Source: an uncultured Paracoccaceae bacterium (lineage in GTDB: Bacteria; Pseudomonadota; Alphaproteobacteria; Rhodobacterales; Rhodobacteraceae). From it: a stretch of 64,000 bases of DNA. The stretch covers positions 124,001 to 188,000 of the forward strand of contig CANNCO010000005.1 of NCBI GenBank assembly GCA_947503175.1, written 5' to 3'. Shown piece by piece: positions 1 to 17,235 of the stretch. How positions within the stretch are numbered: position 1 is the stretch's first letter; every line of letters begins with the position of its first letter. Below the pieces are notes generated by a model, which saw only the letters and a list, made by a program, of their open reading frames with translations, was not told the DNA's origin and searched no databases. The translations under genes and the position numbers were made by a program.

Positions 1-2421
1 GTAATTCGACATCTCGCGCACCCGCGCGACGTCAAGGCCGGTGGCCCGCTCGGTCTGATCCATCATCGCAACGACGGTGCCCATGGTGGCTTGGCTGGTA
101 TTGCCCGACAGCGCGTCCATCGCGCAATCGACGGCATCCACGCCTGCCTCGGACGCGGCAAGGATCGTGGCACAGGCGACACCGGCGGTATCGTGCGTGT
201 GGAAATGGATCGGGATGTCGATCTCTTCCTTCAGCGCCTTGAACAGAACGCTCGCCGCGCGCGGCTTCAGAACGCCCGACATGTCCTTGATACAAAGGAT
301 ATGCGATCCGGCTTTCTCAAGCTCCTTGGCCATGTCCACATAGTATTTCAGATCGTATTTCGACCGGTCCGGATCCAGCAGATCACCGGTATAACAGATC
401 GACGCCTCCAGAACCTTGCCGCTCTCCAGCACCGCATCCATCGCGACGCGCATCTGCTCGGTCCAGTTCAGCGCATCGAAGATGCGGAAGATATCGACGC
501 CGGACGCGGCGGCCTGCTGCACGAAGAAAGCCACCACATTGTCGGGATAGCGGCTATATCCCACACCGTTCGACGACCGGAACAGCATCTGGGTAAGCAC
601 ATTCGGCATCGCCTCGCGCAGATCGCGCAAACGCTGCCAAGGGCATTCCTGCAGGAACCGGTAGGATACATCGAAGGTCGCGCCGCCCCAGCACTCGACG
701 CTGAAAAGCTCGGGCAGGTTGGCGGCATAGGCCGGTGCCGCCCGGATCATGTCGATCGACCGCATCCGCGTCGCCAAGAGCGACTGGTGCCCGTCGCGCA
801 TGGTGGTGTCGGTGATCAGAAGGCGCTTCTGTTCGCCCATCCACTTCGCAAGACCTTCGGCGCCCTCGCGCTCAAGGATTTGGCGGGTGCCGTCGGGCGG
901 GGTGTCGACCGCCAGGTCCGGCGCACGCGGATCGCGGACATCCGCCGCCGGGCGCGGGCGGCCCTCGGTCTCGGGATGCCCGTTCACCGTGATATCCGCG
1001 ATATAGGTCAGGATCTTCGTGGCCCGGTCGCGGCGCTTGCGGAACTGGAACAGTTCCGGCGTCTGGTCGATGAACTTGGTGTGGTATTCGTTCGACAGGA
1101 AAGTCGGGTGCTTCAGCAGGTTCTCGACAAAGGCGATATTCGTGCTGACCCCGCGAATACGGAACTCGCGCAAGGCCCGGTCCATCCGCGCAATCGCCGC
1201 CTCTGGCGTCGGCGCCCATGCGGTGACCTTTTCCAGAAGGCTGTCATAATACCGCGTGATGACCGCGCCGGAATAGGCCGTCCCGCCATCCAGCCGGATG
1301 CCCATCCCCGTTGCCCCCCGATAGGCGGTGATCCGGCCGTAGTCGGGGATGAAGTTGTTCTGCGGATCCTCGGTGGTGATCCGGCACTGGATCGCGTGAC
1401 CGTCAAGCTGAACATCATACTGGCTGGCCGTTCCCGTGGCCTCGACCAGCGACTTGCCCTCGGCAATCAGGATCTGGGCGCGCACGATATCGATGCCGGT
1501 GACTTCTTCGGTCACTGTATGCTCGACCTGCACGCGGGGGTTTACCTCGATGAAGTAGAACTCACCGGTTTCCATATCCATCAGGAACTCGATGGTCCCT
1601 GCACATTCGTAATCCACCGCCTCGGCGATCTTCTTGCCAAGGTTACAGATCTTCTCGCGCTGGGCGCCCGACAGATACGGGGCAGGGGCGCGTTCCACGA
1701 CCTTCTGGTTCCGGCGCTGGACCGAACAGTCCCGTTCCCAGAGGTGATAGATATTGCCCTGCTTGTCGCCGATGATCTGCACTTCCACGTGGCGCGCGCG
1801 CAGAATCATCTTCTCTAGATATCCCTCGCCATTGCCGAACGCCGCCTCGGCCTCGCGCCGCCCCTCGCGCACCTTGTCTTCCAACTCGTCAGGCCCCTCG
1901 ATGGGCCGCATCCCGCGGCCGCCCCCGCCCCAGGACGCCTTGAGCATCAGCGGATAGCCGATTTCACCCGCCTCCTTCGCGATGACGGTCATGTCATCGC
2001 CCAGAACCTCGGTTGCCGGGATCACCGGCACGCCCGCCTTGATCGCGACCTTCCGGGCGCTGGCCTTGTCACCCAATGCCCGCATCGTCTCGGCACGCGG
2101 GCCGATGAACGTAATCCCCGCCTTCACACAGGCATCCACGAAATCGGGGTTCTCCGACAACAGCCCATAGCCCGGGTGGATCGCATCCGCACCGCACATC
2201 TTGGCCACGCGGATCACCTCTTCGATCGACAGGTAGGCGGCCACCGGCCCCAACCCCTCACCAATCTTATAGGCTTCGTCCGCCTTGAACCGGTGCAGGC
2301 TCAGCTTGTCCTCTTCCGCATAGACCGCAACCGTCCTCTTGCCCAGTTCATTGGCCGCGCGCATCACGCGGATTGCGATCTCCCCCCGGTTCGCAATCAG
2401 GATCTTCTTGAATTCTGGCAT
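1..2421 (-). CDS. pyc: Pyruvate carboxylase (3' end beyond the window)
   Basis: Biotin-dependent anaplerotic enzyme that makes oxaloacetate from pyruvate, bicarbonate and ATP. It starts at the ATG complementary to 2419-2421, behind an AAGAAGG ribosome site, and reads MPEFKKILIANRGEIAIR, the classic biotin carboxylase opening. The 807 visible residues cover the biotin carboxylase and ATP-grasp part (roughly 1-460, with a glycine-rich loop near 1915-1935) and most of the pyruvate carboxyltransferase domain, with DTTMRDGHQS near residue 540. The allosteric linker and C-terminal biotinyl domain (family total about 1,150 residues) lie to the left of base 1. The combined BC and CT order separates it from acetyl- or propionyl-CoA carboxylase alpha subunits. 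It lies about 70 bp downstream of the lactate oxidase gene on the same strand. Confidence 0.96.
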   Translation of the reverse strand, partial: MPEFKKILIANRGEIAIRVMRAANELGKRTVAVYAEEDKLSLHRFKADEAYKIGEGLGPVAAYLSIEEVIRVAKMCGADAIHPGYGLLSENPDFVDACVKAGITFIGPRAETMRALGDKASARKVAIKAGVPVIPATEVLGDDMTVIAKEAGEIGYPLMLKASWGGGGRGMRPIEGPDELEDKVREGRREAEAAFGNGEGYLEKMILRARHVEVQIIGDKQGNIYHLWERDCSVQRRNQKVVERAPAPYLSGAQREKICNLGKKIAEAVDYECAGTIEFLMDMETGEFYFIEVNPRVQVEHTVTEEVTGIDIVRAQILIAEGKSLVEATGTASQYDVQLDGHAIQCRITTEDPQNNFIPDYGRITAYRGATGMGIRLDGGTAYSGAVITRYYDSLLEKVTAWAPTPEAAIARMDRALREFRIRGVSTNIAFVENLLKHPTFLSNEYHTKFIDQTPELFQFRKRRDRATKILTYIADITVNGHPETEGRPRPAADVRDPRAPDLAVDTPPDGTRQILEREGAEGLAKWMGEQKRLLITDTTMRDGHQSLLATRMRSIDMIRAAPAYAANLPELFSVECWGGATFDVSYRFLQECPWQRLRDLREAMPNVLTQMLFRSSNGVGYSRYPDNVVAFFVQQAAASGVDIFRIFDALNWTEQMRVAMDAVLESGKVLEASICYTGDLLDPDRSKYDLKYYVDMAKELEKAGSHILCIKDMSGVLKPRAASVLFKALKEEIDIPIHFHTHDTAGVACATILAASEAGVDAVDCAMDALSGNTSQATMGTVVAMMDQTERATGLDVARVREMSNY

Positions 2422-2489
2422 TGGACGGCTCGCCTTCTTTGCAGGTGCAGCAAAGTTCTAGGGTGGCTCTGCCCCAAGGTAAACCAATT

Positions 2490-3626
2490 TCAGGCCAGAC
2501 GGGCCTTTGCCGCATGGGGCGTGGTCAATCCCATCTGGCCCATATCGCAGGTCATGCTGTCGGTCAGCATTTGCACGACATGCGCCGCACCTTTCGCGCC
2601 AAACGCGGCCACGCCGTAGTGAAACGCGCGCCCCAGCATCACGAAATCCGCGCCCAGCGCCAGCGCCCGCAGAATGTCGGTTCCCGACCGGACACCGCTG
2701 TCAAAGATCAGCGGCACATCCGGCCCCACCGCGTCCCGCACCGCCGGCAAGGCTTCGATTGCGGGCGGTGCGGCATCAAGCTGCCGGCCGCCATGGTTCG
2801 ACACCCACAGCGCATCGACCCCCATATCGACCATCCGCTGCGCCGGGGCCGGGTCAAGCACCCCCTTGGCCACCAGCGGGCCGTCCCATTCGTCTCGAAG
2901 TGCCTTTAGGTAATCCCAGTCGGGCCGCGTCCTAAGCACGTATCCGATATGGTCCGTGCCGGGGCGCGGGCTTTTCACATCCGCATACTTCGCGAGCGAG
3001 GCCAGCGTCGGCATCCCGCGCTGCAGGCGCAGGAGGCTCCAACGGGGCCGCAACGCGCATTGCAACGCGATCCTTGGAGTGATCACCGCCGGTTGGCGAA
3101 TATCGGCGCGGCGCTGGCGTTCCCGGCGGCTTGCCACGGGCACATCAATGGTCACCACAAGAACCTTGAACCCCGCATCCCGCGCACGGGCAATCATGTC
3201 GCGCCGGATGTCCGGGTCTCCGGGCGTATAAAGCTGGTACCAGCCGTTCTCGCCCAGATGGCCGGCCATATCCTCGGGGGCCTGCGTCGCCATGGATGAC
3301 AGGCAGAAGGGAATGTTTGCCTCAACGGCCGCACGGGCCAGCATATGCTCCGCCCCCGGCCACATCAGGCCCGACATGCCCACCGGCGCGATCCCGAAGG
3401 GCAGGGCATAGTCCCGGCCCAGAAGCGGGCTCGTCATGTCCAGCTCGGCCTCTCCCCCAAGAACGTCGGGCATCATCTGCACCGCGTCCAGCGCGGTCTG
3501 ATTCCGCTGATGGGCAAGGTCTTCACCGGTCCCGCTGTCAAGGTATTCCCAGACGAAATGGGGAATGCGCCGCTTGGCACGCCGCTTCAGATCGTCAAGC
3601 GAAGGGTGGCTCATCTCTATATCCAT
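2490..3626 (-). CDS. lldD: FMN-dependent alpha-hydroxy-acid oxidase, L-lactate dehydrogenase type
   Basis: A 378-residue TIM-barrel flavoprotein of the glycolate oxidase / L-lactate dehydrogenase family, which oxidises a 2-hydroxy acid to the keto acid. The active-site stretch SNHGGRQLD is present, with the catalytic base at His278, followed by DSGVRSG and ALGADFVMLGR for flavin phosphate binding. The length matches LldD (about 380). A second ATG four codons in (3614) is an alternative start. The next gene on the same strand is pyruvate carboxylase, so lactate to pyruvate to oxaloacetate is a sensible local logic (inference). The substrate could instead be another hydroxy acid such as glycolate or mandelate. 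Confidence 0.85.
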   Translation of the reverse strand: MDIEMSHPSLDDLKRRAKRRIPHFVWEYLDSGTGEDLAHQRNQTALDAVQMMPDVLGGEAELDMTSPLLGRDYALPFGIAPVGMSGLMWPGAEHMLARAAVEANIPFCLSSMATQAPEDMAGHLGENGWYQLYTPGDPDIRRDMIARARDAGFKVLVVTIDVPVASRRERQRRADIRQPAVITPRIALQCALRPRWSLLRLQRGMPTLASLAKYADVKSPRPGTDHIGYVLRTRPDWDYLKALRDEWDGPLVAKGVLDPAPAQRMVDMGVDALWVSNHGGRQLDAAPPAIEALPAVRDAVGPDVPLIFDSGVRSGTDILRALALGADFVMLGRAFHYGVAAFGAKGAAHVVQMLTDSMTCDMGQMGLTTPHAAKARLA

Positions 3627-3782
3627 GCGTCACTTCTAGACCGCGGACGGGCGGGTGCAAGCCGCTTTGCCGTAGGTCCCGATGACGGCACCGCCAGCCC
3701 CGGAACGGCGCGAACCGGCGCAGGCGGAACATTAGGCGAACAATGCTTTATCTTCCCGCCCCTCCGCGCTAGGTTATCTGCC

Positions 3783-6131
3783 ATGAGCAGTTATGATGAA
3801 AGCGATGCGTTCGAGGCGGCCGTGCCGCTCAGCCAGCGGGCCATGGTCGCGCCGACAGGCCGTTATCTCGAGGGCCTGAACCCGGCGCAGCGTGAAGCGG
3901 TCGAAACGCTCGACGGACCCGTCCTCATGCTGGCGGGCGCTGGAACGGGCAAGACCCGCGCCCTCACCGCCCGCATCGCCCACCTGCTCGCCACTCATAC
4001 CGCGCGTCCCAACGAAATCCTCGCCGTGACCTTCACCAACAAGGCCGCGCGCGAGATGAAAACCCGCGTGGCCCGTCTGCTGGGGGCCGAGGTCGAAGGC
4101 ATGCCCTGGCTCGGCACCTTCCACGCGATCTGCGTGAAACTCCTGCGCCGCCATGCCGAACTGGTCGGCCTCAAGACCAATTTCACGATCCTAGATACCG
4201 ACGATCAAGTCCGGCTCCTGAAACAGCTTATCGTCGCGGCGGATATCGACGAAAAACGATGGCCGGCGCGCCAGTTGGTCTCGATCATCGACGGCTGGAA
4301 GAACCGCGCCATTACGCCCGACCGCATTCCGGCGGCAGATGCGGGTGCCTTCAATCACGAAGGCCCGGCACTCTACGCCGCTTATCAGGAGCGCCTGAAA
4401 TCCCTCAACGCCGTCGATTTCGGCGACCTCCTTCTCCATGTGGTCTGGATATTCCAGAACCACGCCGATGTGCTCGAACAGTATCAGCGGTGGTTCCGCT
4501 ACATCCTCGTCGACGAGTATCAGGACACCAACGTGGCCCAGTACATGTGGCTGCGGCTTCTCGCGGGCGGGCACAAGAACATCTGCTGCGTCGGCGATGA
4601 CGACCAGTCGATCTATGGCTGGCGCGGGGCCGAAGTCGGCAACATCCTGCGGTTCGAAAAGGACTTCCCGGGCGCCAAGGTCGTGCGCCTTGAACAGAAC
4701 TACCGCTCGACCCCGCACATCCTTGCCGCAGCATCGGGCGTGATCTCGGCCAACAAGGGCCGCCTTGGCAAGACGCTCTGGACCGACGCCGATGATGGCG
4801 AGCAGGTTCGCCTGATCGGCCATTGGGATGGAGAGGAAGAGGCCCGCTGGATCGGAGAAGAACTTGAGGCCATGGGGCAGGGCACCCGTGGCATGCGACC
4901 CATGTCGTTGAACGAGGCCGCCATCCTCGTCCGCGCCTCCCACCAGATGCGCGCTTTCGAGGACAGGTTCCTGACCATCGGTCTGCCCTATCGTGTGATC
5001 GGCGGCCCGCGCTTCTATGAACGGATGGAGATCCGCGATGCCATGGCCTATTTCCGCCTCGCGGTCAGTGCCGATGACGATCTGGCGTTCGAGCGGATCG
5101 TGAACACTCCGAAGCGCGGGCTAGGTCCCAAGGCGATCGAAAAGATCCAGACCAGCGCGCGCGCAAACGGGCTGAGCCTCGTGGAAGGCGCGCGGCTTCT
5201 TGTCACCTCTGGTGGTCTCGGCGGCAAGGGCGGTACCGAATTGCGTGCGCTCGTGGAGGGCGTCGACCGCTGGGGCGCAGCCATACGAAATACACATCAA
5301 ATACATACGGAAACCGCACAACATATATTGGACGAATCCGGCTACACAGAGATGTGGCAGAACGACAAGACGCCCGAGGCTCCGGGGCGTTTGGAAAATC
5401 TCAAGGAACTCGTGAAGGCGCTGGAGGAGTTCGAGAACATTCAGGGCTTTCTCGAACATGTCTCGCTGATCATGGATAACGAAACCGAGGACGCGACCGA
5501 AAAGGTCTCGATCATGACCCTTCACGCCGCCAAGGGCCTCGAATTTCCTGCCGTGTTCCTGCCGGGATGGGAGGACGGGCTGTTCCCCTCCCAACGGTCG
5601 ATGGATGAAAGCGGCCTCAAGGGTTTGGAGGAAGAACGCCGTCTCGCTTATGTGGGCATCACCCGCGCCGAAGAGGTCTGCACCATATCTTTTGCAGCAA
5701 ACCGAAGGGTTTACGGCCAATGGCAATCCGCCCTCCCGTCGCGCTTCGTGGATGAATTGCCCGAGGAACATGTGGAGGTGCTGACACCGCCCGGCCTCTA
5801 CGGTGGCGGTCAGGCGGCGATCTCATCGGGTCTCGAAGAGGCCGCGACCCGGGCCAATGTCTATAACTCCCCGGGCTGGCGACGCCTACAGGAGCGCAGC
5901 GGCAATCGCTCGATGAGCCAGCCGCGCGAAAGCCGCAACACGGTGATCGACCTTGACGCGGTCTCCGCCTTCACCCAGGGCGACCGCGTCTTTCACACGA
6001 AATTCGGTTATGGCTACGTGATGGGGATCGAAGGCGACAAGCTCGATATCGAATTCGAGAAAGCCGGTTCGAAAAAGGTCGTCGCCAAGTTCATCCTCCC
6101 CGCCGACCGCGCCGATGACACCCCGTTCTAA
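3783..6131 (+). CDS. uvrD: ATP-dependent DNA helicase UvrD/PcrA
   Basis: A 782-residue superfamily 1A helicase for nucleotide-excision and mismatch repair. It shows the Q-motif region LNPAQREAV, Walker A AGAGTGKT (51-58), motif Ia TFTNKAAREM, DEYQDTN (Walker B), GDDDQSIYGWRGA, LEQNYRS, TLHAAKGLEF and VGITRAEE, ending in a PcrA-type C-terminal domain (GDRVFHTKFGYGYV). The open frame extends upstream to 3345, but that part is antisense to lldD, and ATG 3783 gives the family N-terminus. No strong ribosome site precedes it. One short AT-rich stretch (about 5281-5345) breaks the otherwise GC-rich coding pattern; see findings. Confidence 0.95.
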   Translation: MSSYDESDAFEAAVPLSQRAMVAPTGRYLEGLNPAQREAVETLDGPVLMLAGAGTGKTRALTARIAHLLATHTARPNEILAVTFTNKAAREMKTRVARLLGAEVEGMPWLGTFHAICVKLLRRHAELVGLKTNFTILDTDDQVRLLKQLIVAADIDEKRWPARQLVSIIDGWKNRAITPDRIPAADAGAFNHEGPALYAAYQERLKSLNAVDFGDLLLHVVWIFQNHADVLEQYQRWFRYILVDEYQDTNVAQYMWLRLLAGGHKNICCVGDDDQSIYGWRGAEVGNILRFEKDFPGAKVVRLEQNYRSTPHILAAASGVISANKGRLGKTLWTDADDGEQVRLIGHWDGEEEARWIGEELEAMGQGTRGMRPMSLNEAAILVRASHQMRAFEDRFLTIGLPYRVIGGPRFYERMEIRDAMAYFRLAVSADDDLAFERIVNTPKRGLGPKAIEKIQTSARANGLSLVEGARLLVTSGGLGGKGGTELRALVEGVDRWGAAIRNTHQIHTETAQHILDESGYTEMWQNDKTPEAPGRLENLKELVKALEEFENIQGFLEHVSLIMDNETEDATEKVSIMTLHAAKGLEFPAVFLPGWEDGLFPSQRSMDESGLKGLEEERRLAYVGITRAEEVCTISFAANRRVYGQWQSALPSRFVDELPEEHVEVLTPPGLYGGGQAAISSGLEEAATRANVYNSPGWRRLQERSGNRSMSQPRESRNTVIDLDAVSAFTQGDRVFHTKFGYGYVMGIEGDKLDIEFEKAGSKKVVAKFILPADRADDTPF

Positions 6132-6264
6132 AGGCGTTTCTTGGCCGATGTAGCCGTTGGACGCGGATTGTTTCCTGTCAGTCCGTCTCCGGATAGCCCA
6201 GCAACAATCCGTTTCCGAAATCGGAAAACCAGCTTTTGGTTCGGCGCGGCAATCCGTGCTACAC

Positions 6265-6498
6265 TTAACTGGTTAATTCTTCCGTTAAGATTTTGTTTAC
6301 CATTTCAATGGCTTGGATAGAGGCTGAGCGTGGGGCGAAGACTCTCAACCTGTTTCCGGGCCCGTGTCCCAACCGTAAAACGTGCCCGGATGGCCCGTCA
6401 GAATCAGAGACTTGCAAGATTTCGCCGGTATGAACCTCTTTTGCGATCCGAACCGCCCTTATAGTGAACCCGTCTTTGGCGAGTCTGTCTCGGGCCAT
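6265..6498 (-). CDS. Possible small hypothetical protein (77 residues)
   Basis: A minus-strand reading frame from ATG 6498 to TAA 6265 sits in the gap between uvrD and the Hint gene. It starts MARDRLAKDGF and ends in a charged helix-like tail (QAIEMVNKILTEELTS). The composition looks protein-like and no gene overlaps it, but third-position GC is low for this genome and no clear ribosome site is seen. I recognise no family. It may be real or a chance frame. Confidence 0.3.
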   Translation of the reverse strand: MARDRLAKDGFTIRAVRIAKEVHTGEILQVSDSDGPSGHVLRLGHGPGNRLRVFAPRSASIQAIEMVNKILTEELTS

Positions 6499-6565
6499 GT
6501 TGGCCGGGTTGAGCAGGCATCGCGTGTAACCAGTGTAAATGCCCTTACGGGCGGGAGTATGTGAC

Positions 6566-7060
6566 GTGGGGACGACACAACAAACATCGACTCCGGTGAG
6601 CGGCAAAGTGCCCGCCCGGCAGGAGGCACTCAAGTGGAGCCTTCCGGGCTTTGGGCCCATGACCCGGATCTCAACTTCGTTCGGCGAGATGCATGCGCAG
6701 ACCCTGCGCGAGCGTGACGTCATTCGAACCGCGACAGGGCGCCTGGTGCCGGTGCAGTGGGTCGACCGAATGCTGCTCGATACCGAGTTTCTGTCGGTCG
6801 TGACCGATGCGCATGCGATCATGATCCGTGCGGGGTCACTGGGCGGCGGTCTTCCGAAGGCGGATGTCGTCGTCTCGCCCTGTCAGAAAATCGCGCTGGG
6901 CCGTCAGCCGGGCGATTCTCAGTTCGTAGAAGCGGGTAAACTGGTCGGTCGCCCCGGCGTTCTGCGCAAACCCGAGGATATGCTGACCTACACCCTGTTC
7001 CATTGCGGAGAGCCGGTGTCGGTGCGGATGGAAGGCATCTGGGCGCTGGTCGAACCCTGA
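6566..7060 (+). CDS. Hint-domain (hedgehog/intein-like) protein
   Basis: About 164 residues resembling the Hint domains common in Rhodobacteraceae: a strand pattern with VIRTATGRLVPVQWVDR, then MIRAGSLGGGLPKADVVVSP. I chose GTG 6566 because GGGAG lies 8 bases upstream; an ATG at 6539 in the same frame is possible. In self-splicing Hint proteins the domain begins with a catalytic Cys and ends His-Asn. Here the expected Cys position reads Ser/Thr (RISTSFGEMHAQ) and no terminal HN is seen, so autoproteolysis is unlikely and the protein may be a degenerate stand-alone domain. It is monocistronic and followed by a strong terminator. Confidence 0.7.
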   Translation: MGTTQQTSTPVSGKVPARQEALKWSLPGFGPMTRISTSFGEMHAQTLRERDVIRTATGRLVPVQWVDRMLLDTEFLSVVTDAHAIMIRAGSLGGGLPKADVVVSPCQKIALGRQPGDSQFVEAGKLVGRPGVLRKPEDMLTYTLFHCGEPVSVRMEGIWALVEP

Positions 7061-7089
7061 TCCCGGACAAACACCGTAAGAGTTGAAAA

Positions 7090-7120
7090 GGGCGCCCGGA
7101 TCATCCGGGCGCCCTTTTTA
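7090..7120 (+). terminator. Intrinsic terminator after the Hint-domain gene
   Basis: A perfect 10-bp GC-rich stem (7090-7099 with 7105-7114, loop ATCAT) followed directly by five T. It lies 30 bp past the Hint stop codon. The T tract abuts the end of the oppositely oriented small RNA. Confidence 0.9.
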
Positions 7121-7200
7121 AAAAAAGCGGTGACACCAGGGAGGAGGAGAGGTGCCACCGCCTATCTCAGACAACCCAGGGAGGAGGAGGGGCCATCTGA
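7120..7200 (-). ncRNA. Candidate cuckoo/CcsR-type small RNA with two anti-Shine-Dalgarno hairpin loops
   Basis: On the minus strand two consecutive hairpins each have an 11-bp stem. Hairpin 1 pairs 7190-7200 with 7167-7177 and its 12-nt loop is CUCCUCCUCCCU. Hairpin 2 pairs 7151-7161 with 7127-7137 and its 13-nt loop is UCUCCUCCUCCCU. A GAUAG linker separates them. Hairpin 2 is followed at once by seven U (7126-7120), making it the terminator. Three G-U wobbles in stem 1 and one in stem 2 pair only in minus-strand RNA; the plus-strand copy would have A-C mismatches, so the minus strand is the sense. Known Rhodobacterales cuckoo RNAs and rhizobial alpha-r14 RNAs share this anti-SD-loop design and act by pairing near ribosome sites. 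The 5' end is not defined. Confidence 0.8.
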
Positions 7201-7283
7201 ATTCGTTGATACCGGAACCGGTACCGCTATCATTAGAATAGGGTTTTGCTGCACGTGCACAACGATTTCCGACGCAATGCTGC

Positions 7284-7300
7284 TATGCAGAAAATGCATA
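7284..7300. promoter_or_regulatory. 17-bp palindromic element matching the cuyA/LysR intergenic palindrome
   Basis: TATGCAGAAAATGCATA matches 15 of 17 bases of TATGCAGAATCTGCATA at 55328-55344. It lies about 85 bp upstream of the small RNA on its sense strand, so it could be an operator for that promoter. The regulator is unknown. Confidence 0.35.
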
Positions 7301-7640
7301 TGAAAAGACCGCCCGTTCTTTAGGCAACTTGCGGACATCTTTGGCGTTTCTACACTCGGTTTCGCGGATCCCGAAGCCCGTGCCTGCAAACACCGCTTCA
7401 CTGCCTACCAAATACACGGATTGCGTTCGGCCTGCGATTTCGACCCATCGAGACGCAAACGCTCCCGGCGCCGGTCCGATCCGAAATCCGGTGAATCGGA
7501 CGGGTCATGGGAATTTCTGGGACTGTCTAAGATTCGCTTGTTTCTAACTATGGATCACTGCCGAAACCGGCGACTGAAGCGGAATTAAGGCGGCCTGCAC
7601 GCCAGATATCTCAGATATATGGTATTACATGGGAGTTCGC

Positions 7641-7683
7641 GGGTACTTGCAGGCTCCGACTGTATTTGGGTATACAAGTACCC
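7641..7683. promoter_or_regulatory. Perfect 9-bp inverted repeat in the mraZ upstream region
   Basis: GGGTACTTG (7641-7649) and CAAGTACCC (7675-7683) are exact reverse complements 25 bases apart. The right arm is followed by TTGTTTC. This could be a spaced operator or an RNA stem in a long mraZ leader. No family is recognised. Confidence 0.35.
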
Positions 7684-8061
7684 TTGTTTCTATATGTAGT
7701 ATGTATTTCCATCCCCATGGTTAACGATCTGTCGACTCACATGGTGAAATTCAGAGAAAGGTCGTGATACCGAAATTTTTTTGTTGTTTCCCGTAAGATC
7801 CCATGCCATACCTGTAGCTGCGATGAACGGGACAACGAGGCGTTAGACCTCAAACCCCCCAAGCAGGTTTCATACAGGCACCCCGCTCATCGAAGACGAG
7901 ATCCGGCGCGCGAGCGAGCAGACATCCCCCCAGGTGGCGCGCGCAGTCGGACATACACCCGGCAACGGGACGAGGGCGGCGGGTTGAGCAGTGGCAGCAG
8001 CTCAATCCGCCGTTTTCGGTTCAAGGGGCCGGTAACGGGACAATAAAGGAGCGGCCGGGCA

Positions 8062-8562
8062 GTGCTGCGCAGGTTCAGAGGTGAATTCCACCAGAAGGTG
8101 GATGGGAAGGGCCGGGTATCGATCCCGGCTGATTTCCGTCGCGTTCTTGAATCCGGTGACCCCTCCTGGACCGAAGGACTGAACCCCGAGTTCGTAGTCG
8201 TCTTTGGCGGTCCCAAGCGGGACTATCTTGAATGCTACACGATCGAGGCCGCGGCAGAGGTCGACGCCCAGATCGCCGAACTGCCACGCGGTTCGACCGA
8301 ACGGCGGCTTCTTGAGCGTCTGTTTAACGGCCAGTCGCTGAAAACTTCCGTGGACGAGACCGGGCGGATCGTCCTGCCCGCCAAGCTGCGCACGAAAATC
8401 GGGCTGGATGACGCGGCTTACTTCATCGCGACCGGCGACACATTCCAGATCTGGAAACCCGAGACCTTCGAGGCCGACGAGGCCAAGTTCGAGGCCCTGT
8501 TGGATCAGTACCCCGAGGATTTCGATCCGCTGGTCCTGCTCGACAAGAACCGGGACGGTTGA
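8062..8562 (+). CDS. mraZ: Transcriptional regulator MraZ
   Basis: A 166-residue protein with two SpoVT-AbrB-like MraZ repeats. It opens [26 protein letters not shown], and the second repeat contains [14 protein letters not shown]. MraZ heads dcw operons and binds its own promoter region. GTG start with AAGGAG 10 bases upstream. The length is somewhat above the about 145-150 residues of E. coli MraZ, with a tail after the second repeat. It ends 2 bp before rsmH. Three AACGGGAC copies upstream could be its sites, but known MraZ sites in other bacteria are TGGG-type direct repeats, so this is only a suggestion. Confidence 0.95.
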
Positions 8563-8564
8563 CC

Positions 8565-9563
8565 ATGGTTGCGGCGGCAGGGGCCCTTTCCTCCGATCCA
8601 CCGCACATCCCCGTATTGCTGGGGCCGCTTCTTGACGCGGTCGCGCCCGTATCGGGAATCTGGATCGATGGTACATTCGGCGCCGGCGGCTATGCGCGCG
8701 GTATTCTGGCGGCAGGGGCCGAACGGGTGATAGGGATCGACCGCGACCCGGATGTCTTTGAAATGGCGGCGGAATGGGTAGACGAGTATAACGATAGACT
8801 GGTCCTGAAACAAGGCACGTTCAGTACGCTCGACGAGGTCGCCGAAGGCCCCGTTGACGGCGTGGTCCTGGACCTTGGTGTCTCTTCGATGCAGCTTGAC
8901 CGGCCCGAGCGCGGGTTTTCGTTCGCTTCCGACGGACCGCTCGACATGCGGATGAGCCGCGAAGGCCTGTCTGCCGCGGATCTGGTGAACACGGCGGATG
9001 AGGCGGACCTTGCCGACATCATCTATCATTATGGCGAAGAGCGTGCGTCGCGCCGGATTGCGCGGGCTATCGTGGCGGCTCGCGCCAGCGTTCCCATCGT
9101 GACAACCGCGCAACTGGCACAGATCGTCGAAAGCTGCCTGCCGCCGCGTAAACCGGGCCAAAGCCACCCCGCGACCCGCACGTTTCAGGCCATTCGCATC
9201 GCGGTGAACGATGAGTTCGGAGAGTTGATCGGCGGGTTGGAGGCGGCAGAGCGTGCCCTGCGCCCCGGAGGCAAGCTGGCTGTCGTCAGTTTCCATTCGC
9301 TCGAAGACCGGGTTGTAAAGCGTTTCTTTCAGCATGGCTCGGGCGGTGCCGGGCGGGCAAACCGCTATGCGCCCGAGGCTCCCGAAGACACCCCGCGCTG
9401 GAAAGCGCGCAACAAGGGTATAACGGCCGATGCCGCCGAACTGCGCGCCAATCCGCGTGCGCGGTCGGCGACGCTGCGTCTGGGCCTGCGCACAGCTGCT
9501 CCGGCGCGCCGGTCGGATCGCGCCGCGCTTGGCCTTCCCAAACCTGTACTAACGAGGGGATGA
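8565..9563 (+). CDS. rsmH: 16S rRNA (cytosine-1402-N4)-methyltransferase RsmH
   Basis: A 332-residue SAM-dependent methyltransferase (MraW). [27 protein letters not shown] and VIGIDRDP form the SAM-binding start, followed by [19 protein letters not shown] and the C-terminal [13 protein letters not shown], all family signatures. ATG 8565 was chosen; a TTG two codons earlier overlaps the mraZ stop. Modifies C1402 in the ribosomal P site. It is second in the dcw operon, and ftsL follows after 4 bp. Confidence 0.97.
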
Positions 9564-9567
9564 GTGC

Positions 9568-9918
9568 ATGAAATCAGTGATTTACGGGTTGATCGCCATT
9601 TTCGTTCTGGGTCTCGGGTTCTGGGCTTACCAACAGAATTACACGACCCAGACGGTGCTGAAGGAAAACGCCCGCCTCCAGAGCGATATCGCGGGTCTGC
9701 GCGAGCGTCTGGCGGTGCTGCGCGCGGAATGGGCGTATCTCAACCGTCCCGACCGCCTGCGCGATCTGGCCGATCTGAATTTCGACCGGTTGCAGCTCTT
9801 TCCACTCTCGCCCACGCAGTTCGGAACCGTCGATCAGGTCGCCTATCCCCGCCCGCCCGAGTTGGAGGTGACCGGCGTCTATGATGTCCGCGGCGCCGTT
9901 GAAGAGGTGACAGAATGA
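9568..9918 (+). CDS. ftsL: Cell division protein FtsL
   Basis: A 116-residue bitopic membrane protein: a transmembrane segment (about residues 4-20, VIYGLIAIFVLGLGFWAY), then a leucine-zipper-like helix (QTVLKENARLQSDIAGLRERLAVL). The sequence is poorly conserved between phyla, so position (between rsmH and ftsI) and architecture make the call. FtsL forms the FtsQLB complex that activates FtsWI. The 4-bp ATGA overlap with ftsI indicates translational coupling. Confidence 0.92.
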   Translation: MKSVIYGLIAIFVLGLGFWAYQQNYTTQTVLKENARLQSDIAGLRERLAVLRAEWAYLNRPDRLRDLADLNFDRLQLFPLSPTQFGTVDQVAYPRPPELEVTGVYDVRGAVEEVTE

Positions 9919-11696
9919 CCCGCACACCGTTGCGCCCCCTTGCCCGTATCCTCGAGGCCCGCGCACGCGGCCTGAACCCGGACGCTATCGAGCGCGAGAA
10001 TCTCAGAAAGCGCCACGAAGAAACCCGCGATGGCGAACGCCAGCGCGCCGAAGGCCGCCTTCTTGTCATCGGCATCGTTTTTCTCTGCGCCTTTGTTCTT
10101 GTCGGCGGGCGCATGGGGATTCTCGCGGCGACCGACCCGGCGGAGCCGCGTGTCGCGTCGTCGGGCAACTCGATCCTCGCCCAGCGGGCCGACATCGTCG
10201 ATCGCAACGGTCGCATTCTCGCTACCAACCTGACCACGCATTCGCTTTACGCCCAGCCGCCGATCATGATCGATCCCCTGCGCGCGGCCCGCGATCTGGC
10301 CGATATCTTCCCGGATCTGGATGAGGAACGGCTGGTCAGGGACTTCACCGGCAAGCGCAAGTTTCTGTGGATCAAAAGAAAAATCACGCCGGTGCAGAAA
10401 CAGGCCGTCCACGATATGGGCGAGCCGGGGCTGATGTTCGGGCCGCGTGAGATGCGGCTTTATCCCAATGGCAGCCTCGCCAGCCACGTCCTTGGCGGGG
10501 CGGGCTTCGGTCGCGAAGGCGTGCACTCCGCCGAAGTCATCGGTGTCGCTGGCGTCGAGAAAACCTTCGACGACTGGCTGCGCGATCCGGCCCATGACGG
10601 TGCGCCGCTGCAGCTTTCGCTTGATCTGTCGGTGCAGGCAGCGACCGAGCGTGTGCTTCTGGGCGGTATGCGGCTGATGAACGCCAAGGGCGCCTCGGCG
10701 GTCCTGATGGATGTTCATACCGGCGAGATCATCAGCCTTGTCAGCCTGCCCGATTTCGACCCGAACGATCGTCCCGTCCCGCTGACCGAGGGGGATGCGG
10801 GCGACAGCCCGCTGTTCAACCGCGCGGTGCAAGGCGTCTACGAACTGGGCTCGACCTTCAAGATATTCACGGCCGCCCAGGCAATCGAGACGAACCTCGT
10901 CAACACGTCGACGATCATCGACACCAAGGGGCCGCTCCGTTGGGGCAGGCACCGGATCAGCGATTTCCGCAACTACGGGGATGCGCTTTCGGTTGAAGAT
11001 GTGATCGTCAAGTCCTCGAATATCGGCACCGCCCGGATGGCGATGGACATCGGCGCGGACCGTCAACGCGCCTTCCTCGACTCACTGGGTTTCATGAAGC
11101 CGACGCCGGTCGAACTGGTCGAAGCCGCGGGCGCACGTCCGCTTCTGCCCTCGCGCTGGTCCGAGATTTCGACGATGACGATCTCCTATGGTCACGGGCT
11201 GTCGGCAAGCCCGCTGCATCTGGCGACGGGGTATGCCTCGCTCTTGAACGGCGGCACCCGTGTGACACCGACATTGATAAAGCGAAAGGCGCCCGTCATC
11301 GGCCCGCGCGTGATCAGCGAACAGACATCGGCCATCGCGCGCGATCTTCTGCGCAAGGTCGTCACCGAAGGCACGGCGTCCTTCGGCGAGGTCGCGGGCT
11401 ATCAGGTCGCAGGTAAAACCGGGACGGCGGACAAGCCCAACTCCAGCGGCGGGTATTACGAAGACAAGGTCATCGCGGTTTTTGCCTCGGTGTTCCCGGC
11501 ATCCGATCCGCGCTATGTTCTGGTCGTGGCGCTCGACGAAGCGGTCGAAACCTCGGGCGAGGAACCGCGCCGGACCGCGGGCTGGACGGCCGTTCCGGTT
11601 GCTGCCGAGATCATCCGGCGGACGGCACCCTTGCTTGGACTGCCGCCGATCATTGAAGCCGACGTTAAAAGCGCGGTAACACTGGCATCGAACTGA
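9915..11696 (+). CDS. ftsI: Septal peptidoglycan transpeptidase FtsI (PBP3)
   Basis: A 593-residue class B penicillin-binding protein. A cytoplasmic N-terminus precedes one transmembrane segment (about 49-66) and the pedestal domain with RADIVDRNGRILA. The transpeptidase motifs are S313-T-F-K316 (nucleophile Ser313), S367-S-N369 and K501-T-G-T504. It cross-links septal peptidoglycan with FtsW. The cytoplasmic tail, about 48 residues and basic, is slightly long. It overlaps ftsL by 4 bp; murE starts 18 bp later. Confidence 0.97.
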   Translation: MTRTPLRPLARILEARARGLNPDAIERENLRKRHEETRDGERQRAEGRLLVIGIVFLCAFVLVGGRMGILAATDPAEPRVASSGNSILAQRADIVDRNGRILATNLTTHSLYAQPPIMIDPLRAARDLADIFPDLDEERLVRDFTGKRKFLWIKRKITPVQKQAVHDMGEPGLMFGPREMRLYPNGSLASHVLGGAGFGREGVHSAEVIGVAGVEKTFDDWLRDPAHDGAPLQLSLDLSVQAATERVLLGGMRLMNAKGASAVLMDVHTGEIISLVSLPDFDPNDRPVPLTEGDAGDSPLFNRAVQGVYELGSTFKIFTAAQAIETNLVNTSTIIDTKGPLRWGRHRISDFRNYGDALSVEDVIVKSSNIGTARMAMDIGADRQRAFLDSLGFMKPTPVELVEAAGARPLLPSRWSEISTMTISYGHGLSASPLHLATGYASLLNGGTRVTPTLIKRKAPVIGPRVISEQTSAIARDLLRKVVTEGTASFGEVAGYQVAGKTGTADKPNSSGGYYEDKVIAVFASVFPASDPRYVLVVALDEAVETSGEEPRRTAGWTAVPVAAEIIRRTAPLLGLPPIIEADVKSAVTLASN

Positions 11697-11714
11697 CACT
11701 GGGTTGGGGCGAGC

Positions 11715-13205
11715 ATGAGAACCCGGGACGATGCAAGATCACTAGGTGAACTGGGCCTGACGGTGCCGGGCTCCGGCGATGTCCGGGTCACGGGGCTGGC
11801 AGTGGACAGCCGCGACGTCATCAAGGGCAGCCTGTTCGCGGCTCTGCCGGGCACCAGGGTACATGGCGGAGAGTTCATCACATACGCAATCCGCATGGGC
11901 GCGGGGGCGATCCTGACCGACCGCGAGGGGGCGCGTATCGCGAAGGCCGAGATCGACGAAGCCGGCCTCCCCGTTGTCATCGCCGAGGACCCGCGACAGG
12001 CGCTGGCCTATGCCGCCGCGCTCTGGTTCGGCCAGCAGCCAGAGGTTGTCTGCGCAGTCACCGGCACCAATGGAAAGACCTCGGTTGCGACCTTCACCCG
12101 GCAGATTTGGATGGCGCTTGGCATCGAAGCCGTGAACATCGGCACGACCGGCGTCGAAGGCTGCTATTCCGCACCACTTCAGCATACGACGCCCGAACCG
12201 ATCACCCTGCACCGCGTTCTTCACGACGTGGCCGAGGCGGGGATCGACCATGCGGTGATGGAGGCCTCTTCGCATGGGCTGGAACAGCGCCGTGTCGATG
12301 GCGTGCGGCTGACGGCGGCGGGGTTCACGAATTTCAGCCAGGATCACCTGGATTACCACGAAACCTTCGAGGCGTATTTCGCCGCAAAGGCGGGCCTTTT
12401 TGACCGTGTCCTGCCCGAAGATGGAACCGCCGTGATCAATACGGACGATCCGATGGGGCCGGAAGTGGCGGCAATCGTCGAGGCCCGGGGCTGCGATATC
12501 CTGACCGTGGGCCGGGATTCAGCCGCTGCCCTGCGCCTTGTGAACCAGCGGTTCGATGCAACGGGGCAGGAATTGCGCTTCGAATGGAACGGACATGCAA
12601 AACAGGTGCGCCTGCCGCTGATCGGCGGGTTTCAGGCCGAAAATGCGCTTGTGGCGGCAGGTCTCGTGATCGCGTCGGGCTGTGCGCCGTCCGAAGTGTT
12701 CGAGGCGCTTCCGATGCTCACCACCGTTCGGGGCCGGATGCAGCTTGCCGCAAGCCGCGACAACGGCGGGGCGGTGTTCGTGGATTACTCCCACACGCCA
12801 GCGGCGCTGGAGACCGCCCTGCGCGCGCTCCGCCCCCATGTCATGGGGCGGCTGATCGTCGTCTTCGGTGCGGGCGGCGACCGGGATGCGGGCAAACGCC
12901 CGCTGATGGGCGAGGCAGCGGCGAAACACGCCGACATCGCCATCGTGACCGACGATAACCCGCGTTCCGAAGATCCGGCGGCAATCAGGGCGGCGATCCT
13001 TGCCGCCTGTCCCGAAGCCAACGAATACGGCGACCGGGCCGAGGCGATCCTGCGCGGTGTCGATATGCTCGAGTCCGGCGACGCCCTGCTGATTGCGGGC
13101 AAGGGCCATGAGACCGGTCAGACCGTGGGGGACACCGTTTACCCTTTCGATGATGCGGAACAGGCCAGCGTCGCGGTCGCAGCCCTCGACGGGCGGATCG
13201 CATGA
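11715..13205 (+). CDS. murE: UDP-MurNAc-tripeptide ligase MurE (meso-diaminopimelate adding)
   Basis: A 496-residue Mur ligase that adds the third stem residue to UDP-MurNAc-L-Ala-D-Glu. The P-loop is GTNGKTS (117-123). The DNPRSEDP motif (414-421) marks meso-diaminopimelate specificity, as expected for a Gram-negative. ATG 11715 is preceded by a GGGGCGAG-like stretch. It ends with the ATGA overlap into murF. Confidence 0.97.
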   Translation: MRTRDDARSLGELGLTVPGSGDVRVTGLAVDSRDVIKGSLFAALPGTRVHGGEFITYAIRMGAGAILTDREGARIAKAEIDEAGLPVVIAEDPRQALAYAAALWFGQQPEVVCAVTGTNGKTSVATFTRQIWMALGIEAVNIGTTGVEGCYSAPLQHTTPEPITLHRVLHDVAEAGIDHAVMEASSHGLEQRRVDGVRLTAAGFTNFSQDHLDYHETFEAYFAAKAGLFDRVLPEDGTAVINTDDPMGPEVAAIVEARGCDILTVGRDSAAALRLVNQRFDATGQELRFEWNGHAKQVRLPLIGGFQAENALVAAGLVIASGCAPSEVFEALPMLTTVRGRMQLAASRDNGGAVFVDYSHTPAALETALRALRPHVMGRLIVVFGAGGDRDAGKRPLMGEAAAKHADIAIVTDDNPRSEDPAAIRAAILAACPEANEYGDRAEAILRGVDMLESGDALLIAGKGHETGQTVGDTVYPFDDAEQASVAVAALDGRIA

Positions 13206-14638
13206 CGGCGCTTTGGACAGCCAGCGATGCCGCCCGCGCCACAGGCGGGCAGGCGCGGGGTGACTGGCGCGCGATGGGGGTTTCGATAGACACCCGCACG
13301 ATCGAACCGGGCGATATGTTCGTCGCACTCAAGGATATTCGCGACGGCCATGACTTCGTGGCCGATGCACTTGCCAAAGGGGCCGCTGCCGCGCTTGTGT
13401 CGCATATCCCGTCTGATATCCCCGAAGACGCCCCGCTTCTGATCGTGGACGATGTTCTGGCGGCTCTGGCCGAACTGGGACGCGCCGCACGCGCCCGCTG
13501 CAATGCTCAGGTCGTGGCCATCACCGGCTCTGCCGGAAAAACCTCGACCAAGGAAATGCTGCGCGATGTGCTCGCCGGTCAGGGACGCGTCCATGCCGCC
13601 GAAGCAAGCTACAACAACCACTGGGGCGTGCCGCTGACACTGGCACGCATGCCCGCTGATATCGAATACGCCGTGATCGAGATCGGGATGAACGCACCTG
13701 GCGAAATTGCCCCGCTGTCCCGGCTGGCCCGTCCCCATGTGGCGGTCGTGACAACCGTCGCGCCCGCGCATCTTGCCGCATTCGAGAGTATCGCGGGGAT
13801 TGCCCACGAAAAGGCGTCGATCTTCGAGGGGCTGGAACCCGGCGGCATCGCGATCTTCAATGGCGATGTGGAGACGACCGACATCCTGCGGGAAACGGCT
13901 GCACGCCACGCCGGAACGCTGATCTCATTCGGCGAGACGGTCGGCGCAGACTACCACCTGACCGAGGTCGACATGACCCATGCCGGAACGGTGGTGCAGG
14001 CCCGGAAGGAAGGTCAACAGCTATTGTTCAAGATCGGCGCACCGGGGCGCCATTTCGCGATGAACGCGCTTGCGGTACTTGCCGCCGTAGATGCAATCGG
14101 TGCAGACGCCGCGGTCGCCGCCTGCGATCTGGGCCGCTGGTCGCCGCCCGCGGGTCGGGGCGTGCGCGAAACGCTCTCCCTCGATCCGGTCGAAGACCAC
14201 ATGACCGTGGAAATGATCGACGACGCGTTCAACGCCAACCCGGCCTCTGTCGACGCCGCGCTCGAAGTTCTCGCGGCGACGAAGCCGGTCAATGATATCG
14301 GTCGCGTGGCCCGGGGACGTCGGATCGCGATCTTGGGCGACATGCTGGAACTGGGTTCCGATGAGACGAAGATGCACCGCGCCATTGCCGACCATCCGGC
14401 GATGGAAAGCGTCGCGCTTGTCCATTGTGTCGGTCCCCTGATGGCCGAGCTTTGGGACGCACTTCCCGAACCGCGCCGTGGCGCGAAAGTCGACAAAGCC
14501 GAAGACCTCGCCTCCCGCGCCCACACGCTCGTGGATGCAGGCGATGTCGTTCTGATCAAGGGATCGAAAGGCAGCCGCGTCAGCCTTGTCGTTGATGCGT
14601 TGCGCAAACTGGGCCATCCGAGCCTGACCGCGAACTGA
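13202..14638 (+). CDS. murF: UDP-MurNAc-tripeptide D-Ala-D-Ala ligase MurF
   Basis: A 478-residue Mur ligase with P-loop GSAGKTS (109-115), [16 protein letters not shown] and [19 protein letters not shown], both typical of MurF, and [15 protein letters not shown]. It adds D-Ala-D-Ala, made by the Ddl encoded at 25992, to complete the pentapeptide. It overlaps murE by 4 bp and is 13 bp from mraY, so it belongs to the same transcript. Confidence 0.97.
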
Positions 14639-14651
14639 AGGGGGCGGGCCG

Positions 14652-15737
14652 ATGCTGTTCGAACTGACACGATTTTCCGACGGCGGGGACATCTTCAACC
14701 TGTTCCGCTACATCACGTTTCGGGCCGGGGGTGCGTTCTTCACCGCGCTGATCTTTGGCTTCATCTTCGGCAAACCCCTGATCAACCTCCTGCGCCGCCG
14801 CCAGAAACACGGGCAGCCGATCCGCAGCGACGGCCCCGAAAGCCACGTTACCGAAAAAGCCGGAACACCCACGATGGGGGGGCTTCTGATCCTTTCGGCA
14901 CTTCTCGTTTCAACGCTGCTCTGGGCGCGGCTCGACAACGGTTATGTCTGGATCGTGCTGTTCGTGACGGCCGGATTCGGTCTGATCGGTTTCGCCGATG
15001 ACTATGCCAAGGTCTCGAAGAACACGAATGCAGGCGTCCCGGGGAAGGTCCGCTTTTCGATCGGCCTCGTGATTGCGGCCATAGCGGCCTACTGGGCGTC
15101 GATGCTCCATCCCGACGCGCTAAGTTACAAGCTGGCGGTTCCCGTGTTCAAGGACGTCCTCTTGAACCTTGGGCTGATCTTCATCCCCTTTGCGATGATC
15201 GTGATCGTGGGGGCCGCGAATTCCGTGAACCTCACCGACGGTCTGGACGGACTTGCAATCATGCCGGTGATGATCGCCGCTGGTACCCTTGGGGTCATCG
15301 CCTACGCGGTGGGCCGCGTCGACTTCACCGAATATCTCGATGTGCATTACGTCCCCGGCACCGGCGAAATCCTGATCTTCACAGCGGGTCTGATCGGCGG
15401 CGGCCTCGGGTTTCTCTGGTACAACGCGCCCCCCGCGGCGGTGTTCATGGGAGATACCGGAAGCCTTGCACTGGGCGGCGCATTGGGCGCCATCGCAGTG
15501 GCAACGAAGCACGAAATCGTGCTGGCGATTGTCGGCGGTCTGTTCGTGGTCGAGGCCCTGAGTGTCATCATTCAGGTCGCCTATTTCAAGCGCACCGGAA
15601 AACGGGTCTTTTTGATGGCCCCGATCCACCATCACTTCGAAAAACAGGGCTGGGCGGAACCTCAGATCGTGATCCGGTTCTGGATCATCAGCCTGATCCT
15701 TGCCCTGATCGGTCTGGCCACGCTGAAGCTGCGCTAG
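14652..15737 (+). CDS. mraY: Phospho-N-acetylmuramoyl-pentapeptide transferase MraY
   Basis: A 361-residue polytopic membrane enzyme that transfers phospho-MurNAc-pentapeptide to undecaprenyl phosphate (lipid I). Visible motifs are [46 protein letters not shown] and the histidine loop [22 protein letters not shown]. The length equals the family norm (about 360). Confidence 0.98.
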
Positions 15738-15837
15738 ACCGGGCCGGCCTTGACGCCGGTGGTTTCCGCCCCCACACCCCCGGTGGGAGATTGGAAGGAA
15801 CAGAAGGGTCGACCCGGGTGAAGCACGAGGCGCAAGA

Positions 15838-17235
15838 ATGATCCCCGTTCAAGGTGTTGAGGGCCAGACAGTTGGTGTCCTCGGTCTGGGTCTGTCGGGG
15901 CGGTCCGCCGTGCGTGCACTTGTGGCCGGTGGGGCAAAGGTCGTTGCATGGGACGATGGCGAGATTGCGCGCAACGCGGCCGAGGAAGATGGGGTGATCC
16001 TTCTGGACGTCACACGCCCAGAGGCCATGGACGGTCTGTCGCTTCTGATCGTTTCTCCGGGCATCCCGCATCTCTACCCCGCACCCCATCCCGCAATTGC
16101 CGCTGCGCTTGTCGCGGGCGTGCCCATCGACAACGATGTCGGGCTTTTCTTCCGGTCACTGGCCCTTCGAGCCTGGGACCGGTTCGAGACCGCGCCCCGG
16201 GTGATCGCCATCACCGGGTCCAACGGAAAGTCCACGACTTCGGCCCTGATCCATCACATCCTGACCGCCGCAGGGCACGACGCGCAGCTTGCCGGAAACA
16301 TCGGGCGCGGTGTTCTGGACATCGATCCGCCGGACGATGGCGGTGTCGTGGTGCTGGAGCTTTCATCCTATCAGATCGATCTTGCCCGGGCGCTGACGCC
16401 GGATATCGCTGTTTTCACCAACCTGACGCCGGATCATCTGGATCGCCACGGCGGCATGGGCGGGTATTTCGCGGCCAAGCGCAGGCTGTTCTCCGAAGGC
16501 GGCCCCGACCGCGCGGTCATCGGTGTCGATGAAGACGAGGGGCGCTATCTGGCGGGCCAACTGGCGGAAGGACCCGCCGACACCCGGGTGATCCGTGTCT
16601 CGTCAGGTCGCAAGCTCGGCAGTCCGGGTTGGAACGTATTCGCCCGCAAGGGGTTTCTCGCTGAAACCCGCAATGGCCGTCAGGTGGGGTCAATCGACCT
16701 TCGGGAGATCCGGGGTCTCTCCGGCGCTCACAACCACCAGAATGCCTGTGCCGCCTATGCCGCCACCCGCGCGCTTGGCCTGGCCCCGCGGCTGATCGAG
16801 GACGCATTTGCAAGTTTCGAGGGCCTGCCCCACCGCAGCCAGGTGATCGCGGAGAGCAACGGCGTGGTGTTCGTCAACGATAGCAAGGCCACCAATCCCG
16901 ACAGCGCGTTAAAGGCACTGCAGGCCTTCGACCGGGTGCGCTGGGTCGTGGGCGGCCAGATGAAAGAGGGTGGGCTGGGCACCCTGCCGCAAGCCTTCGG
17001 CCATGTCGCGAAGGCCTATGTCATCGGTCGCCATGCGGCGGAGACAGCTCTCATGCTGGGTGATCTGCCGCATCAGGTATGCACGACCATGGCGGAAGCC
17101 GTTGCATGCGCCGCGGCCGAGGCGGAAAGCGGCGACACGGTCCTTCTGGCCCCCGCCGCGGCCAGTTTCGACCAATACGACAATTTCGAACGCCGGGGCG
17201 AGGATTTCATCGCCGAGGTATTGCGAGCCATATAG
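15838..17235 (+). CDS. murD: UDP-MurNAc-L-alanine:D-glutamate ligase MurD
   Basis: A 465-residue Mur ligase with an N-terminal Rossmann domain ([16 protein letters not shown]), P-loop GSNGKST (127-133), [17 protein letters not shown] and [16 protein letters not shown]. It adds D-Glu to UDP-MurNAc-L-Ala. A 100-bp gap separates it from mraY, the largest spacing so far in the cluster. Downstream the operon is broken: instead of ftsW, 304 bp without a gene and then a minus-strand AraC gene follow. Confidence 0.97.

Follow-up and report, generated by a model that had tools for sequence, protein, structure and literature searches.

Between a uvrD/pcrA helicase gene and mraZ, the first gene of the dcw cluster, lie a Hint_2 domain gene and, on the opposite strand, two adjacent hairpins, a run of seven Us, and a conserved promoter-like block upstream of them (Table 1). 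The window, by which we mean the whole stretch of 64,000 nucleotides that was analyzed, belongs to an uncultured Paracoccaceae bacterium (G000 in what follows), and all coordinates refer to it.

Table 1. Features of the uvrD-mraZ region in the window
Feature	Position	Strand	Sequence or remark
uvrD/pcrA helicase gene	3345-6131	+	conserved flank of the cuckoo locus
Hint_2 domain gene	6539-7060	+	between uvrD and the sRNA; Pfam PF13403, E 1.2e-16
Convergent terminator hairpin of the Hint_2 gene	7086-7119		T5 on the + strand
U7 tract of the intrinsic terminator	7126-7120	-	seen in the sequence
Hairpin 2	7161-7127	-	GCGGUGGCACC / loop UCUCCUCCUCCCU / GGUGUCACCGC; 11 bp, one G-U pair
Hairpin 2 anti-SD motif	7147-7139	-	inside loop UCUCCUCCUCCCU; the stem is also the terminator stem
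Hairpin 1	7200-7167	-	UCAGAUGGCCC / loop CUCCUCCUCCCU / GGGUUGUCUGA; 11 bp, three G-U pairs
Hairpin 1 anti-SD motif CCUCCUCCC	7187-7179	-	inside loop CUCCUCCUCCCU
Possible 5′ leader hairpin without anti-SD motif	7208-7225	-	from folding
RpoH-like -10 element CCCTATTCT	7235-7243	-	aligned position in relatives ~CC[CT][CT]AT[CTG]TT
Conserved promoter-like block	7247-7299	-	TATGC..TTTCTGCATAGCAGCATTG-N11-TTGTGCACGTGCAGCA; TTG is -35-like
Very strong terminator hairpin	7973-8018	+	GGCGGCGGGTTGAGC...GCTCAATCCGCCGTTTTC; mraZ leader, ~44 nt before the start codon
mraZ, first dcw gene	8062-8562	+	conserved flank, other side of the cuckoo locus

Structure, conservation and family

A sequence-only reading of this DNA had described two 11-bp hairpins on the minus strand with U7 after the second, and the sequence from 7200 to 7120 is exactly as it claimed; hairpin 2, being followed by U7, doubles as the terminator, again as proposed. 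The same reading held that wobble pairs make both stems complete only in the minus-strand RNA, and the fold energies agree: -37.3 kcal/mol for the minus strand vs. -24.8 kcal/mol for the plus strand, where both stems are interrupted. The fold of the region 7230-7090 has z = -5.6, and none of 200 dinucleotide shuffles was as good. Where the possible leader hairpin lies, two relatives also form hairpins, unrelated to it in sequence.

For the evolutionary signal, we compared three solitary copies: that of the window, that of a congener (G001), and that of a member of a second genus (G065). All three have canonical pairing at 21 of the 22 stem pairs; compatible changes have occurred in five pairs, and in three of these both bases differ. 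As an example, alignment pair 47-70 of hairpin 1 is U-G, G-U, or A-U across the three sequences, and hairpin 2 has compensated changes in the relatives (U-A/C-G and G-U/G-C/A-U). The sole break is in G065, where hairpin 1 lacks its outermost pair; the hairpin 1 stem is intact in G001. Loss of the stems by uncompensated changes in close relatives was what the earlier reading had named as speaking against it, and in both G001 and G065 the stems are kept and compensated. These two relatives also keep intact loops, the T-rich tail, and the promoter block. The intergenic gaps of G000 and G001 cannot be aligned save for two islands, which are the hairpins and the block ~50-110 bp upstream of them.

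A wider survey covered 40 fetched loci and the window. Here 269 of 295 occurrences of the motif CCTCCTCCC lie within a stem with 8 or more of 10 pairs, while the reversed motif does so in 21 of 66; 93% of the stem positions are paired (a value inflated by the pre-selection of such stems) vs. 50% after shuffling arms between hairpins. The loop is fixed, and the stems use all pair types. A two-hairpin short regulatory RNA, with loops that mimic the mRNA-binding sequence of the ribosome, is almost certainly real.

Which family does it belong to? The covariance-model search that had been suggested as a check gave a divided answer. On the positive side, ar14 (RF02344) is the only Rfam match at gathering threshold in the whole window, with 64.9 bits over a cut-off of 58.8 (E = 1.9e-9 for the whole window), and it spans 7207-7084. 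On the negative side, the CcsR1 model (RF02791) aligns in full length (7204-7122, E = 1.4e-12) but reaches only 54.4 bits, under its cut-off of 65.3. That cut-off is also missed by nearly all of the Rhodobacteraceae copies sampled, the only sampled relative above it being G022 (86.7 bits), which has an array at the uvrD-mraZ place. The features that characterize the cuckoo family are all present: the hairpins are adjacent, both loops have the exact CCUCCUCCC, and the stems are variable but paired. Together, the exact loops and the ar14 score bear out the earlier assignment to the cuckoo/CcsR/ar14 type of anti-Shine-Dalgarno (anti-SD) sRNAs.

In NfeR1, the Sinorhizobium meliloti RNA that is the founder of ar14, each of three hairpins displays an ultraconserved CCUCCUCCC anti-SD loop, and antisense pairing to mRNAs has been predicted for it (PMC10746234). 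Like NfeR1, the window RNA is stand-alone, has anti-SD loops, and scores over the ar14 cut-off; unlike NfeR1, it has two anti-SD hairpins, not three, and sits at the Rhodobacteraceae dcw locus. The ar14 model places its third hairpin at 7119-7086, on a hairpin that the sequence-only reading had not mentioned; the loop there is three bases long and does not contain CCUCCUCCC, and thus the ar14 score is partly due to the terminator of the neighboring gene. Since this hairpin is the Hint_2 terminator, and NfeR1 has three hairpins that all bear the motif, the window RNA is, judging by its sequence, a two-hairpin cuckoo RNA whose form is closest to a single CcsR unit. With CcsR1-4 of Rhodobacter sphaeroides (RF02791; cuckoo family, CIN1 locus) it shares the two adjacent CCUCCUCCC-loop hairpins, and its hairpin 2 is very like the CcsR1 consensus. 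Where they form an array, it is a single unit; it also has no ccaF1 (DUF1127) gene upstream and scores under the CcsR1 cut-off. That the copy is solitary, as had been supposed, agrees with the single strong one in the 4.0-Mb genome. A second CcsR1 match there (G000:C1:1684802, 21.9 bits) has no CCTCCTCC and looks like an ordinary terminator.

The uvrD-mraZ locus and its promoter block

Proximity to the dcw cluster had been taken as the mark of an isolated copy, and this turned out to be wrong. In the fetched Rhodobacteraceae loci, the space from uvrD/pcrA to mraZ holds cuckoo arrays of ~1-8 units, oriented divergently from mraZ, and most of these arrays follow directly after a DUF1127 gene. 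We also collected 80 named loci (among them Rhodobacter viridis, Defluviimonas, Ruegeria, Yoonia, Gemmobacter, and Pseudorhodobacter, R. sphaeroides being absent), which were found via DUF1127 alone and so by design comprise only loci that retain it; 76 of the 80 have CCTCCTCCC loops, and in 62 of those 76 mraZ or mraW is within 6 kb. Because the order uvrD, cuckoo array, DUF1127, mraZ is common, we consider that the window has this same locus, in synteny, after deletion of DUF1127 and reduction of the array to one unit. In most Rhodobacteraceae loci examined, DUF1127-cuckoo arrays have their usual place at the dcw cluster, and the window sRNA is a new, reduced member of the known cuckoo/CcsR group at its syntenic locus. 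The Hint_2 gene is found between uvrD and the sRNA also in G001, and tblastn detected none in the other fetched uvrD-mraZ loci. A literature search found no report of the uvrD-mraZ synteny or of the block; Reinkensmeier 2015 and Billenkamp 2015, the main works on cuckoo and CcsR RNAs, lay outside that search, so the synteny and the block may already be known.

The window RNA thus has the uvrD-mraZ position of the CcsR/CIN1 type, and lacks the ccaF1-type DUF1127 gene that this type has directly upstream in the same transcript. In agreement with the sequence-only reading, there is no DUF1127 ORF in positions 1-16000 of the window, nor is there one in locus L061. The DUF1127 genes of the window's genome are on another contig, none with cuckoo loops downstream. 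The uvrD-mraZ locus of G001 is likewise without DUF1127, and G407 has another dcw-linked locus without it, with two units. In G065, the cuckoo RNA at uvrD-mraZ has the block and no DUF1127, and a DUF1127 gene at L134 (G065:C12, near 243853) has its own copy of the block and no cuckoo RNA; this arrangement suggests an operon that has split.

The block directly precedes the sRNA in the window, lies ~360 bp ahead of the array in relatives, and is common to DUF1127-cuckoo operons. Its general form is CTGCATRGCAGCATTG-N11/12-TTGTGCANNYGCAGC followed by an RpoH-like -10, and in relatives it reads TATGC-N2-TTGCTGCAT[AG]GCAGCATTG-N11/12-ATTGTGCANN[TC]GCAGCA, and then a -10 of the type C[CT]TAT or CCCAT. 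Of 395 family genomes, 132 have the exact pattern, almost always in a single copy, and none has the reversed pattern; block columns outside the search pattern are also near-invariant. From the block to the first loop the distance is ~340-440 bp where DUF1127 intervenes, and 103-113 bp in the window, G001, and G065, which is the result expected from deletion of the DUF1127 cistron with the promoter retained. 

The CcsR1-4 RNAs of R. sphaeroides arise from the ccaF1 operon, under an RpoHI/RpoHII promoter (PMC10253847). For these sigma factors, a TTG at -36 to -34 has been reported, together with C, T, and A around -14 to -12 (PMC3441632), and the window -10 is about one base off that spacing. 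The resemblance of the motifs is suggestive of an RpoH-type promoter, with a predicted transcription start near 7231-7228 on the minus strand. For comparison, NfeR1 has the RpoD signature CTTAGAC-N17-CTATAT (PMC10746234), unlike the RpoH-like -10 here, and a scan for sigma-70 promoters gave no minus-strand candidate ahead of the sRNA. The stretch 7310-7220, with the putative promoter, includes the sequence CTGCATAGCAGCATTG besides the TTG and the -10.

Palindromes of the form TGCTGC-N3-GCAGC also precede phasin genes in G000 and G001 (L123 and L124), with centers AAT and ACT. These centers fit the RNY of the published PhaR pattern TGCRNYGCASMA (PMC6201568), whereas those of the block are ATA or ATG in nearly all of its 62 distinct copies, and we do not claim PhaR as a regulator of the block. 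DUF1127 genes at L129 (G000:C1, near 556000) and L132 (G001:C11, near 188300) lie behind a palindrome, CTGCRTTGCAGAAAA, that resembles published PhaR sites.

Solitary two-hairpin cuckoo RNAs also make up a second group (L139-L141 and L143-L147, to which L148 can be added). Like the window RNA, they have a similar promoter block, two CCTCCTCCC hairpins within 30-60 nt, and no DUF1127. Unlike it, they have other stem sequences, and no uvrD or mraZ was detected in their 3-kb loci. One genome, G255, has three copies of this group, one of them with a mutated second loop (L148).

Proposed action and rival explanations

Very probably, the minus-strand region 7231-7120 specifies a stand-alone cuckoo-type sRNA of ~110 nt that would act in trans by occluding Shine-Dalgarno (SD) sequences. 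The proposal draws on structure, family match, synteny, compensatory changes, and the upstream block, as read from the DNA, and from these we infer transcription, sigma factor, SD occlusion, and targets. The RpoH-like promoter at 7299-7235 would start a short leader, followed by the two hairpins displaying CCUCCUCCC, and hairpin 2 with U7 would end transcription. At this counterpart of the Rhodobacteraceae DUF1127-CcsR array, DUF1127 would have been deleted and one unit left, and therefore a primary transcript is predicted, as opposed to a 3′-UTR product of RNase E processing; since there is no ccaF1 upstream, the 3′-UTR processing of CcsR1-4 is not expected here.

The motif CCUCCUCCC mimics the 3′ end of 16S rRNA, that is, the anti-SD. 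Because the loops copy it, occlusion of extended SD sequences is their likely action: the exposed loops would pair with GGAGGAGG/GGGAGGAGG in target mRNAs and so keep the 30S subunit from binding, which would probably happen under stress. This mode of action was put forward for NfeR1 (PMC10746234) and has also been discussed in the case of SmelA075/099 (PMC3927594). Perfect 9-nt SD complements just before an ATG are rare, with three in G000 and four in G001, and this scarcity counts against the proposal. One of the three in G000 begins a long acetyl-CoA-synthetase-like ORF, and those in G001 include PQQ-dehydrogenase-like and ABC-transporter permease-like ORFs (all names come from reading the sequences). 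The 8-nt pattern GGAGGAGG-N4-10-ATG has 23 sites in G000 vs. 2 with the reversed pattern, counts that ordinary strong SD sequences are expected to yield and which thus are not evidence of targeting. A GNAT-acetyltransferase-like ORF has an 8-nt site in both genomes. As candidate targets, these ORFs are predictions only.

Could the locus be a decaying relic, in which DUF1127 and most units have been lost and the remaining unit is non-functional? The absence of DUF1127, and the one unit left vs. several in relatives, are what a relic would have. But a relic would gather uncompensated changes, and the compensated hairpins of G001 and G065, with loops, tail, and block kept, make this very unlikely. 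Even less probable is that the hairpins only terminate two converging transcripts, as an elaborate bidirectional or double terminator in which the CCUCCUCCC loops are incidental. Such a terminator would leave unexplained why the same 9-nt loop motif is in both hairpins and is kept as the stems change, why the RNA has an Rfam family score, and why a conserved promoter block lies directly upstream with no intervening gene, even though hairpin 2 with U7 is a good terminator and the convergent Hint_2 terminator adjoins it.

A StsR-like sRNA acting in cis or in trans on the neighboring mraZ 5′ leader is to us the least probable of the three. The sRNA is divergent from mraZ, whose leader has a strong terminator in an arrangement matching that of UpsM, as reported for Rhodobacteraceae (PMC5089854), and sections of PMC8307010 report binding of StsR, in R. 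sphaeroides, to both UpsM and the 5′ UTR of dcw. However, those sections describe StsR as a 72-nt RNA and mention no CCUCCUCCC loops, and the complement GGGAGGAGG is absent from the mraZ leader as read here.

For the stand-alone cuckoo-type sRNA, the comparison of loci brings up a further possibility, namely that the RNA has outlived its RNA-binding partner. A CcaF1-type DUF1127 gene would have been removed from the operon in several lineages, and the RNA would now be a primary transcript under its old promoter, a dedicated, near one-per-genome element bound by a putative regulator. We hold this view tentatively, finding it almost as easy to believe as to doubt.

These results place the DUF1127-CcsR locus of Rhodobacteraceae at a conserved position opposite the dcw cluster. 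The conserved, near one-per-genome block offers a concrete handle on the regulation of a candidate stress sRNA. And the lineages that have the sRNA but not DUF1127 are natural tests of whether a CcaF1-type protein is needed in the maturation or function of cuckoo RNAs.
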